DNA from: Lachnospiraceae bacterium MD335
Lineage (GTDB): Bacteria > Bacillota > Clostridia > Lachnospirales > Lachnospiraceae
Assembly: GCA_000403335.2 (NCBI GenBank)
Contig: KE159628.1
Coordinates: forward strand, 614,241 to 678,240
Reading direction: 5' to 3'
DNA: 64,000 nucleotides
Made by a program: the position numbers and the translations under genes. Shown here in pieces: positions 57,793 through 60,322 of the stretch. Within the stretch, counting starts at the first letter, position 1; each line of letters starts with the position of its first letter. The notes under the pieces were generated by a model that saw nothing but the letters and a program-made list of their open reading frames with translations, did no database searches and was not told where the DNA came from.

Positions 57793-57829
57793 CACCCCCG
57801 CCCTTGGATGTGATTCCGAGGGCGGGGTG
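57793..57829 (+). terminator. GC-rich hairpin after the pectate lyase gene
   Basis: CACCCCCGCCCT (57793-57804) pairs with AGGGCGGGGTG (57819-57829) with a single bulged C and a 14-base loop. It starts 14 bases after the stop. The T run is poor, but the stem is the most stable in the region. Confidence 0.7.
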
Positions 57830-57972: not shown

Positions 57973-58001
57973 TTGAACAAGGCACAGTAATATGTTATAC
58001 T
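57973..58001 (+). promoter_or_regulatory. Promoter of the RelA/SpoT-domain operon
   Basis: TTGAAC (57973-57978), a 17-base spacer and TATACT (57996-58001). Transcription would start near 58008, fifty bases before the ATG at 58058. The operon thus has its own strong promoter, separate from the pectate lyase gene. Confidence 0.7.
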
Positions 58002-58057
58002 AATAGCGTCTTTGATAAATGTTTTTCTTGAAATAAATACGTGATGGTGAAGAGAGC

Positions 58058-59080
58058 ATGAATGAACAGTATGTAGAAGCGAGAATTCGGGAATTCTCTA
58101 AAAAGCGAATTTTTTATGAAAATTTTGCAGAGCAGGTACTCAACATTTTGAAGGTAATTATAAAGGAAGAATATCCGGATATAAAAATCGCATCGTATTC
58201 TAAACGGGCAAAAGAGATAGAAAGCTTAAGGAAAAAGCTCCGTAAGGATAAATATAATGAGACCAGTGAAATTACGGACTTAGCGGGTGTCAGAATTATT
58301 ACATATAGCAAAAAGGATATTCCGTTAATTGCAGGAATCATTAAAAGCAGTTTTGACGTTGACATTCAAAATTCCATTGATAAAACACTTTCTTTGGGGA
58401 ATAATAAAGTGGGCTATCGTGGTGACCATTATGTGGTATCTTTTAGTGCGGACAGGGCTCGGATGCCGGAAAATAAGAATTTTAAAGACTTAAAGTGTGA
58501 AATTCAGGTTACGAGCTTAATTGCGCATACATGGTCTGAGATTACACATGAGAAAGGCTATAAGTTTGAGGGAGAATTGCCAGAAGAATTAGAACGTAGA
58601 AAAAATTTATTGGCTGGAATGTTGGAACTGGCAGATTTAGAGATGGATGCATATGTAGAATCTTTTGATAGTTATGTCAGTAAGATTGAACAGGAAATAG
58701 AAAAGGGCTGTCTTAAATATCAGATAAATTCGATGTCATTGGAACGATTTATGGCTTGGAGATTTCCTGACATAGCGCCGCAGATATTTAGGGATGTGGA
58801 TTTAATTCTTAATGAGCTAAGGTTGTATGGTCTGAGTACCATAAAAGAATTAGATGAACTAATTCGTTCGGAATATGAAACGGAGATTCGAAAAGCTGAG
58901 TGGAGATCTTTGGATGGAATAATACGAAACATATTGATATTACATGATGCTGAACTATATTTCACAAAAGTATGGAATCCGTCCATGAATCAGATGAATA
59001 GAAAAAATTATGAGTTATATCAGAAATTCGGTGTGGATGTAGATAGAATTTGCAACGAACACAATATCTGTATTGTATAG
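58058..59080 (+). CDS. RelA/SpoT-domain nucleotide pyrophosphokinase with unknown C-terminal domain
   Basis: 340 residues. The synthetase domain covers about 20-190: KRAKEIESLRKKL, ITDLAGVRIITYSKKD with the ATP/Mg site Asp and Arg, GYRGDHYVV with the nucleotide-stacking Tyr, and EIQVTSLIAHTWSEITHEKG with the catalytic Glu. There is no HD hydrolase domain and no TGS/ACT, so it is a small alarmone synthetase. The last 150 residues are helical with RFMAWRFPDIAPQIFRDVDL, and I do not recognise them. Housekeeping small synthetases are about 210-260 residues, whereas toxic (toxSAS, CapRel-like) forms have extra domains and neighbours such as those here. It leads an AT-rich three-gene operon. Confidence 0.85.
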   Translation: MNEQYVEARIREFSKKRIFYENFAEQVLNILKVIIKEEYPDIKIASYSKRAKEIESLRKKLRKDKYNETSEITDLAGVRIITYSKKDIPLIAGIIKSSFDVDIQNSIDKTLSLGNNKVGYRGDHYVVSFSADRARMPENKNFKDLKCEIQVTSLIAHTWSEITHEKGYKFEGELPEELERRKNLLAGMLELADLEMDAYVESFDSYVSKIEQEIEKGCLKYQINSMSLERFMAWRFPDIAPQIFRDVDLILNELRLYGLSTIKELDELIRSEYETEIRKAEWRSLDGIIRNILILHDAELYFTKVWNPSMNQMNRKNYELYQKFGVDVDRICNEHNICIV

Positions 59081-59096
59081 AACAGAGGGGGGAACA

Positions 59097-59294
59097 ATGG
59101 AAAAGAAAAAACAATATTTTGGATATGATGAAGAACAGATTCGAGAGGTATTTCGTAACAGTAAGGATCAGGTAGATACAAATAGTAAAATTGAAGACAC
59201 TTCAACTTTGTCACAGTTAGTTGAAGCAAGTGGTAGATTGCTAAAAGAAAACAAAGATTTTTTGCATATGATATACAATGATTTAGATGATTAA
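59097..59294 (+). CDS. Small acidic helical protein, unknown
   Basis: 65 residues from the ATG at 59097, six bases after GAGGGGGG, the strongest ribosome site in this operon. Charged and helical throughout: YFGYDEEQIREVFRNSKDQ, LSQLVEASGRLLKENKDF, ending YNDLDD. No known domain. It is placed 16 bases after the alarmone synthetase gene. Size, charge and strong translation would suit an antitoxin for the synthetase, by analogy with toxSAS pairs; this is inference only. Confidence 0.7.
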   Translation: MEKKKQYFGYDEEQIREVFRNSKDQVDTNSKIEDTSTLSQLVEASGRLLKENKDFLHMIYNDLDD

Positions 59295-59318
59295 ATAGCT
59301 TGGAGGCATGATTTCGAT

Positions 59319-59822
59319 ATGTCAGAAAAATACAAATGGATGACCGAACAAGAATATATGGAAGAAATAAGTTATTTAGATAAACTTTTACGTGATTTTT
59401 GTGAGGGCAGTGATTTATATCCGTATGAGTCAGTGAAGACAAATATTAAGACTTTGAAGGATATTATTGTCAGGGTTCATAAAAGAAAGCATTATTTTAA
59501 AGTATTTCATAAAGAAATGATTACTTCAGAGTATAAGGAAACAGCTTTATATTGTTACTGGTATTTAAAATTACGGCCGTTATGGATTGAACCGGATAAT
59601 GTGAGTTCGGAAAGGATTAATGAAAAATTTGCATTATATTTATACATTTCACTACTGAAAAAATATAATGAGGATTTTTCTTTAAAGGACGGGATAAATA
59701 TATCGCATATCAGGGAGCTTTTATATTCCTTTCGGTTTAGAGATTTTACAAAAGAATCAATGATACTAATGCTAGAGCCGTACTATTATGAATATTTAAA
59801 GAAGAAAGATGCGGTATTTTGA
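59319..59822 (+). CDS. Unknown 167-residue protein of the RelA/SpoT operon
   Basis: 167 residues, no membrane segment, rich in Tyr, Lys and Glu. GGAGG lies about 12 bases before the ATG at 59319. Features: WMTEQEYMEEISYLDKLLRD, HKRKHYFKVFHKEM, YCYWYLKLRPLWIEP, LLEL-like end PYYYEYLKKK. Predicted mostly helical. I do not recognise the family. It is 24 bases downstream of the small acidic gene and is as AT-rich as the rest, so it belongs to the same unit. Confidence 0.65.
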   Translation: MSEKYKWMTEQEYMEEISYLDKLLRDFCEGSDLYPYESVKTNIKTLKDIIVRVHKRKHYFKVFHKEMITSEYKETALYCYWYLKLRPLWIEPDNVSSERINEKFALYLYISLLKKYNEDFSLKDGINISHIRELLYSFRFRDFTKESMILMLEPYYYEYLKKKDAVF

Positions 59823-60152
59823 ATAATTGTCTGTTTCTTGACGCAAAACAGTTTGTTTGAGCATAAAATATACTTGTCGTCTGTTGATGTGCAATCTCCA
59901 ATTAACTGGAGTGCAAAATTGGACACATTTGAGATCTTATAATTTTTAAGCGATGGAAGACTAATAGAGGTTCATAAAAAGGTGGTATTGTTGGGACAGA
60001 AGATTAAGCAAAATGAGAGTGGAAAATATCACGGGAACTGTTATTTAAATTTGGGAAAAGGATTTTCTCATAACACTATACGCACTCACCAGTAAAAAAT
60101 TCGCGATAAATATCAGGATTTATATGAAAACAACAAAACGCTTTATAATAAG
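59823..60152. other. Intergenic region, possible mobile-element relic
   Basis: About 330 bases without a credible gene. A TTG at 59992 opens a short frame, LGQKIKQNESGKYHGNCYLN, that stops at 60093 (LGKGFSHNTIRTHQ), and another stretch KIRDKYQDLYENNKTLYNKK follows in the next frame. These look like fragments of one decayed gene. The segment near 59915-59935 (GGAGTGCAAAATTGGACAC) is reminiscent of insertion-sequence ends, but no partner end was found. Confidence 0.3.
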
Positions 60153-60197
60153 AAAGCCCTACTTGTACAAAATTCACAGTACAAGTGGGGCTTTTTT
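60153..60197 (+). terminator. Rho-independent terminator
   Basis: A 16-base arm at 60153-60168 pairs with 60179-60194 (one G-T) over a 10-base loop and is followed by six T. It insulates the RelA/SpoT operon from the acetylesterase gene. Confidence 0.85.
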
Positions 60198-60322
60198 GTA
60201 AAATTATTTGTCAAAATTAGTTTGACTATGACCTTATGTCATACTTTATAATAAAAATATAGCATTAGAGTGTAAAAGGGCTTTTTGTGCTCTCAACGTA
60301 AAAAGGAAAAGGAGGAGCGGGT

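Follow-up and report, generated by a model that had tools for sequence, protein, structure and literature searches.

The window analyzed here, a 64,000-nucleotide stretch of contig KE159628.1 from Lachnospiraceae bacterium MD335, contains three ORFs on the same strand, encoding a RelA/SpoT synthetase and two partner proteins designated p65 and p167 (Table 1). The gaps between the ORFs are 16 bases (synthetase to p65) and 24 bases (p65 to p167), and the three-gene operon proposed in the original prediction is thus present. The very strong ribosome-binding site that had been noted in front of the p65 gene was confirmed, and a GGAGG is found at this site in four other complete loci. The unit was also thought to have its own promoter. 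The promoter scan by itself provides no evidence for this, because 17 sites were found against 13.6 expected in shuffles. The promoter is instead borne out by conservation, with TTGAA[CT]-17-TATACT (-35 and -10 boxes) being the best conserved bases upstream in 7/7 aligned loci. The G+C content of the three-gene unit is 32.9%, compared to 41.7% for the window, in agreement with its description as AT-rich, although 4% of same-sized window stretches are as low. The unit had further been placed between two pectinase genes. This holds for the upstream gene, which encodes a pectate lyase (Pfam PF00544, 1.4e-32), but not for the downstream gene, whose sole match is a GDSL-esterase just below the Pfam cut-off. 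Similarly, of the two terminators said to flank the unit, the downstream hairpin looks like a real terminator, although at a distance from p167, while the upstream hairpin shows no clear T-run and possibly marks the end of the upstream transcript. Both hairpins were absent from the list of the first promoter/terminator scan.

Table 1. Features of the three-gene unit and its flanks; positions refer to the window.
Feature	Position	Strand	Remarks
RelA/SpoT synthetase gene	58058-59080	+	340 aa, synthetase-only
p65 gene	59097-59294	+	65 aa, acidic, without family match
p167 gene	59319-59822	+	167 aa, founder of a family adjoining RelA/SpoT genes
Candidate promoter, TTGAAC-17-TATACT, TG before -10 box	57973-58001	+	Promoter scan and conservation
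Ribosome-binding site of p65 gene, GAGGGGGG	59085-59092	+	Strong; from sequence
Upstream hairpin, GC-rich, strong	57793-57829	+	z -5.6; after pectate lyase gene
Downstream hairpin, intrinsic-terminator-like	60148-60199	+	z -8.4; starts 326 bases past p167

The RelA_SpoT domain (residues 49-171, 2.1e-17) is the sole Pfam match of the synthetase above the cut-off and no hydrolase domain was found, confirming that the protein is synthetase-only. The enzyme also matches phrog_9640 in PHROGs (residues 10-233, 5e-52) and PDC-S33 in PADLOC (residues 25-160, 3.8e-15). The catalytic domain lies within about residues 15-200 and is followed by a C-terminal part of about residues 212-340, which had been described as an unrecognised domain. 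This description fails for residues ~215-275, which resemble the same region of some other long synthetases in hhalign comparisons (probability 85 with all relatives together, 86 and 89 with two subsets, and <20 with three other subsets). It stands for the remainder, which seems to be peculiar to the clade of the window enzyme. The AlphaFold2 models of the synthetase and p167 are poor (mean pLDDT 56 and 43, respectively), with pLDDT <50 across most of the C-terminal part of the synthetase. The nearest folds and sequences of the window synthetase are RelQ-type (RelQ/RelP) enzymes. CapRel is its 45th fold match (E 4.7e-4, from the poor model); it is not among the sequence matches and appears only with a mixed profile.

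Protein p65 is acidic, with a pI of 4.7. Neither p65 nor p167 has a convincing match in Pfam, NCBIfam, PADLOC, or PHROGs, as expected from the earlier impression that both partners differ from recognised families. The two proteins match no antitoxin model, and no DUF4065 and no pZFD or Tis1-like sequence match was found in either of them with Pfam. A Y-F-G-Y sequence near the p65 N-terminus (window 59115-59126) is similar to the YXXY plug of toxSAS antitoxins, but may be due to chance; it is kept in the relatives, the one exception being an F for the second Y in L008. Homology of p65 with the small ORFs of other p167 loci was considered and rejected, as a relation was undetectable (hhalign probability 0.2).

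The p167 profile gave nothing convincing against solved structures (best E 0.37), and p167 is predicted to be helical in a model too poor to trust. With the window p167 as the sole query, 5/397 genomes of the host family were matched. A first profile (A1) matched 5/391 genomes of the class and an improved profile (A3) matched 20/397 family genomes. A RelA/SpoT gene adjoins p167 in 17 of these 20 genomes, window included. It is intact in 14 (G000, G028, G032, G042, G105, G111, G118, G221, G243, G262, G318, G333, G350, and G396) and broken or truncated in three (G022, G181, and G339); none was seen beside p167 in G240, G358, and G386. A separate small ORF (63-90 aa, mechanically called) accompanies p167 in 17/20 genomes; in G032 it is seemingly fused to p167, and G181 and G358 lack a recognisable one. 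In 11/14 intact loci the synthetase is followed by the small ORF and then p167, and in G221 and G262 the small ORF is the first gene. In G022, a frameshifted p167 precedes the synthetase remnant, and p167 is cut short in G358. Outside the host family, p167 homologues were found beside two-transmembrane (2TM) proteins in G703 and G645, and a p167 fragment in G552. The 2TM proteins are weakly SLATT-like (best match 2.3e-4, 20.7 bits against a cut-off of 60). At L067:6391-7499 and L068:6374-7470, a p167 homologue is directly followed by such a protein in place of a RelA/SpoT gene. Among 23 distinct p167 members, W81, P87, and N101 are invariant. Positions 52, 56, and 59 are R, R, and Y in five window-clade members and the orphan L050 (G386), and D, D, and R in 17 other members, including L067 and L068.

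The 13 other intact trio enzymes all match profile A7 at 5e-65 or better, and the three of them that were scanned have phrog_2211 as their best match. These enzymes are of a different class than that of the window, and the p167 partner family therefore serves two synthetase classes. Across the 397 genomes, A7 gave 28 strong matches (E <1e-60), 14 beside p167 and 14 stand-alone. In a tree of 13 trio and 14 stand-alone enzymes (frameshifted G339 left out, with a long-branch warning for the trio rows), the two sets split at one branch (99/99), and no A7-type enzyme without p167 falls outside the stand-alone clade. The stand-alone enzymes (L122-L135), from 14/397 family genomes, carry an E[IV]QGRT or EIQART motif, are short-branched, and have no p167 alongside. 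The distance matrices of synthetase and p167 are strongly correlated (12 loci, fused L101 left out; Mantel r 0.89), and 0/10000 shuffles gave a value as high.

The ATP-donor and catalytic residues are kept in the window synthetase (R50, K52, S56, K60, D74, R79, Y120, and E148), as mapped here from the FaRel2 residues given in the available text of PMC11782079. On the acceptor side, 5/5 enzymes of the window clade have Gly122 and Thr152, within the motifs GYRGDH (GYRGNH in L010) and EIQVTS (EIQITS in L012). In a first census, the Gly122 position is occupied by Ser (32) or Ala (1) and the Thr152 position by Arg (31) or Lys (2) in 33 other synthetases; the only other exception is L007, a FaRel2 homologue from the same genome as the window, with Gly and Asn. 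In a second census, Ser/Ala and Arg/Lys were found in 63/63 phage or viral-contig enzymes (62 distinct, many related), 13/13 trio enzymes, and 14/14 stand-alone enzymes; L071 and L052 are in both censuses. The comparison set is without CapRel and PhRel, and the motif serves as a sequence correlate only. According to the available text of PMC11782079, the positive acceptor patch is reduced in size in FaRel2, which does not produce an alarmone. Judging from sequence, Gly122 and Thr152 may be the cause of a FaRel2-like change of acceptor. In a tree with L007 as the sole toxSAS, on a very long branch and of unsure placement, the window clade lies among the long-C-terminus synthetases, where it clusters with a Cetobacterium plasmid enzyme (98/94), and away from L007. 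The likeness of its acceptor site to FaRel2 is therefore probably convergent. Because the commoner trio enzymes retain Ser/Ala and Arg/Lys, a FaRel2-like site is not characteristic of the entire system.

Besides the trio enzyme, the genome encodes a long RSH, two RelQ/P-like enzymes, a receiver-RelQ fusion, and one more long synthetase, and four of its synthetases other than the long RSH have canonical acceptor residues. With the curated YjbM model, the trio enzyme scores 60 bits, compared to 179 and 154 for the two RelQ/P-like enzymes; the cut-off of 320 bits is reached by none of the three. The possibility that the trio enzyme is the ordinary housekeeping RelQ/RelP of the organism is unlikely, given this lower score, the Gly122/Thr152 in place of Ser/Arg, and the other RelQ/P-like genes. 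The L007 homologue (L007:1300-1932; G000:C14:287895) belongs to a second RelA/SpoT locus and matches FaRel2 at 2e-66 (PDB 8pu4). The small ORF after it (1904-2131) encodes YEPY, a motif similar to the YXXY found in ATfaRel2. The receiver-RelQ fusion (L002:1366-2490, minus strand; G000:C12:20042) is a 374-aa protein that combines a response-regulator receiver domain with a RelQ-like synthetase.

A contig search with the synthetase retrieved seven related loci of Lachnospiraceae type among 119 pattern matches. The p65 gene follows the synthetase in 7/7 loci (the L011 contig breaks off 37 residues into p65), and p167 is present in the 6/6 loci where the contig reaches that far. The trio is thus conserved as neighbours, and the wider p167 survey agrees. 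Chance association of the three genes is ruled out by this linkage, the neighbourhoods of the p167 family, and the correlated distances. Proteins in the related loci share 67-85% (synthetase), 73-89% (p65), and 83-87% (p167) amino acid identity with those of the window. The mean dN/dS values from 10 pairs of five complete loci are 0.056 for synthetase residues 1-200, 0.086 for residues 201-340, 0.059 for p65, and 0.039 for p167, with a mean dS of 1.1-1.8 that is near saturation and pairs without computable dS left out. All three genes are under strong purifying selection.

In loci that include the 5' part of the unit, nucleotide similarity to the window sets in close to the promoter or start codon; it breaks off at the end of p167. 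Gene neighbours, with their kinds judged from sequence, vary between the related loci. Up to ~230 upstream bases are shared among L008, L009, and L010 and fewer among the rest, and a downstream stretch of ~45 bases is shared by L010 and L012. In six relatives the G+C content of the unit ranges from 30 to 43%, below that of the flanks (38.5-57%) in all six, with the mildest case being L012 at 43%. An empty insertion site was not seen, as the flanks have no match of >33 bases in seven other genomes sampled from the genus. A palindromic promoter-like element is located ~200 bases upstream of the trio at L008:202 and L009:7795 and is imperfect in L010; its pattern was not found in the window. At L014:7600-9500, a partner-only remnant is located beside a gene, part of whose sequence recurs at the opposite end of the unit, as if inserted with duplication.

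The synthetase is damaged in 3/7 related loci. L011 has a stop in the synthetase, L013 has an in-frame loss of 173 synthetase codons (~residues 6-179), and L014 is missing the first ~215 synthetase residues; p65 and p167 are kept in L013 and L014. Together with the family genomes, the enzyme is broken or missing and p167 is kept in six loci (L013, L014, G339, G181, G240, and G386), with an uncertain p167 start in G181. The converse, an intact enzyme of the trio clade with p167 missing, was seen in none, and both genes are damaged or missing in G022 and G358. This decay count is small, four of the six loci were found via p167, which favours p167-only loci, and errors in metagenome-assembled genomes may contribute.

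Single-gene relatives of the enzyme are carried by a filamentous Vibrio phage, a plasmid of Bacteroides that also bears phage genes, and a small plasmid of Klebsiella. Synthetases of the phrog_2211 type were found on 61 IMG/VR contigs (L141-L201). Among the 63 phage or viral-contig loci, namely these contigs and two phage records, 54 contain an ORF of ≥330 aa and none (0/63) has a p167 match. The search for p167 in phages, plasmids, and viral contigs gave only one weak partial plasmid match. The relatives on phage, plasmids, and viral contigs only suggest a phage-defence role for the trio.

The anatomy of the unit resembles that of toxSAS systems. Like the window unit, FaRel2-ATfaRel2 from Coprobacillus (PDB 8pu1-8pu4) has a synthetase-only RelA/SpoT enzyme with the donor-site residues kept and a small partner gene, and the two enzymes share a Gly after Tyr-Arg and the absence of Arg from the EIQxR motif. 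However, the window enzyme is not close kin of FaRel2 in the tree, where the FaRel2 branch is very long and its place unsure. It also has an extra C-terminal part of ~130 residues and two partners, neither with a detected antitoxin domain. FaRel from Cellulomonas marina is a RelA/SpoT toxin flanked by two partner genes, one for a small alarmone hydrolase and the other for a Tis1-like/pZFD protein (PMC11782079, available text), whereas p65 and p167 both follow the enzyme and have no Pfam match of those kinds. The fused toxSAS CapRel (PDB 7ztb, 9erv) is also a synthetase with a C-terminal extension and is described as phage-triggered in the available text of PMC9712102; unlike CapRel, the window enzyme has no recognised zinc-finger-like domain and its partners are separate. 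In the hyperpromiscuous PanA (DUF4065) antitoxins, one partner family serves several toxin classes, and only a small share of the loci has a third gene (PMC8832971, available text). Similarly, p167 adjoins two synthetase classes and 2TM proteins, but 11 p167 members have no DUF4065 match at E 0.1 and the third gene is constant here. The window enzyme matches the PADLOC PDC-S33 and PHROG 9640 synthetases and the three commoner trio enzymes scanned match PHROG 2211; the 63 phage or viral-contig loci examined differ from the trio in having no p167 match. Membership of the FaRel2, CapRel, or PanA systems is not supported by the tree, the sequence matches, or the DUF4065 scan. Because kinship with known toxSAS and a known antitoxin domain were both looked for and neither was found, membership of toxSAS is not claimed. 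A three-gene unit of this kind is not described in the available portions of PMC8832971, PMC10440598, PMC11559606, PMC9712102, PMC11782079, and PMC12691689; this coverage of the literature is partial, and an earlier description may exist.

We give an even chance to the reading that the trio is a horizontally mobile toxin-antitoxin-like unit, with a toxSAS-like effector that is under the control of p65 and p167, in the window probably tRNA-directed, and possibly acting by abortive infection. The acceptor substitutions shared with FaRel2, the patchy mobile distribution, and the loss of the enzyme with the partners kept lend indirect support to a toxin. In such a unit, p65 and p167 would hold the enzyme inactive, probably in a complex, which we infer from the strict linkage, the p167 residues that change with synthetase class, and the fact that it is the enzyme, not p167, that is lost. 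Release of the enzyme by a trigger, possibly phage infection, might then stop translation, although this step is speculative. The trio proteins are very conserved, which speaks against the toxin-antitoxin reading; phage sensors are fast-evolving. The RelQ-type nearest folds and sequences, the canonical acceptor in the commoner trio, the absence of p167 from the phages and viral contigs searched, the lack of an antitoxin-model match, and the lack of a demonstrable relation of p65 to the other small ORFs also count against it.

Strong purifying selection, the RelQ/RelP relatives, and the canonical acceptor residues of the commoner trio enzymes at the same time favour the main rival, a regulated signalling enzyme that makes (p)ppGpp or (p)ppApp for stress, with p65 and p167 as on/off sensors and no toxin involved. 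Protein regulators of Rel enzymes are known, for example DarB (PMC9848473, available text). Nevertheless, the patchy distribution with differing insertion sites, the loss of the enzyme while p167 is kept, and the loss of the acceptor Ser and Arg in the window clade speak against it, as does the presence in the genome of a long RSH and four other synthetases whose acceptor residues are canonical. We regard this explanation as unlikely, though a serious one. It is improbable that p65 and p167 form an independent immunity or sensor pair and couple to a nearby effector, either RelA/SpoT or SLATT-like, with p167 as a sensor and not an antitoxin. The p167 homologues with a small ORF and no synthetase in G240 and G386, and those beside 2TM proteins in G703 and G645, would fit such a pair, but the SLATT matches are weak, a RelA/SpoT gene adjoins p167 in most family loci, and the two diverge together. 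An addiction or selfish module that merely stabilises mobile DNA and has no phage role agrees with the several different insertion sites, and the single-gene relatives on phages and plasmids fit either this or a phage role, but we hold it to be very unlikely.

We tentatively propose, as a possibility that is on balance doubtful, two things together. The p167 family would be an undescribed group of control proteins in Clostridia that neutralise, or couple to a sensor, at least two RelA/SpoT classes and membrane effectors of the SLATT-like type, and its interface residues would switch with the enzyme class. In addition, a (p)ppGpp-type synthetase of the window lineage would have independently become a tRNA-CCA pyrophosphokinase by losing the same acceptor Ser and Arg as FaRel2. 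If true, an uncharacterised partner family would be added to the proteins that restrain RelA/SpoT toxins, and one partner family could serve different enzymes. The window clade would also provide a natural experiment, with two residues as candidates, on the switch of an alarmone synthetase from a nucleotide to a tRNA acceptor. The occurrence of p167 beside different RelA/SpoT enzymes suggests an undescribed way of restraining a growth-stopping enzyme, and the trio would, if this is correct, represent a testable growth-arrest or defence system in gut Lachnospiraceae.
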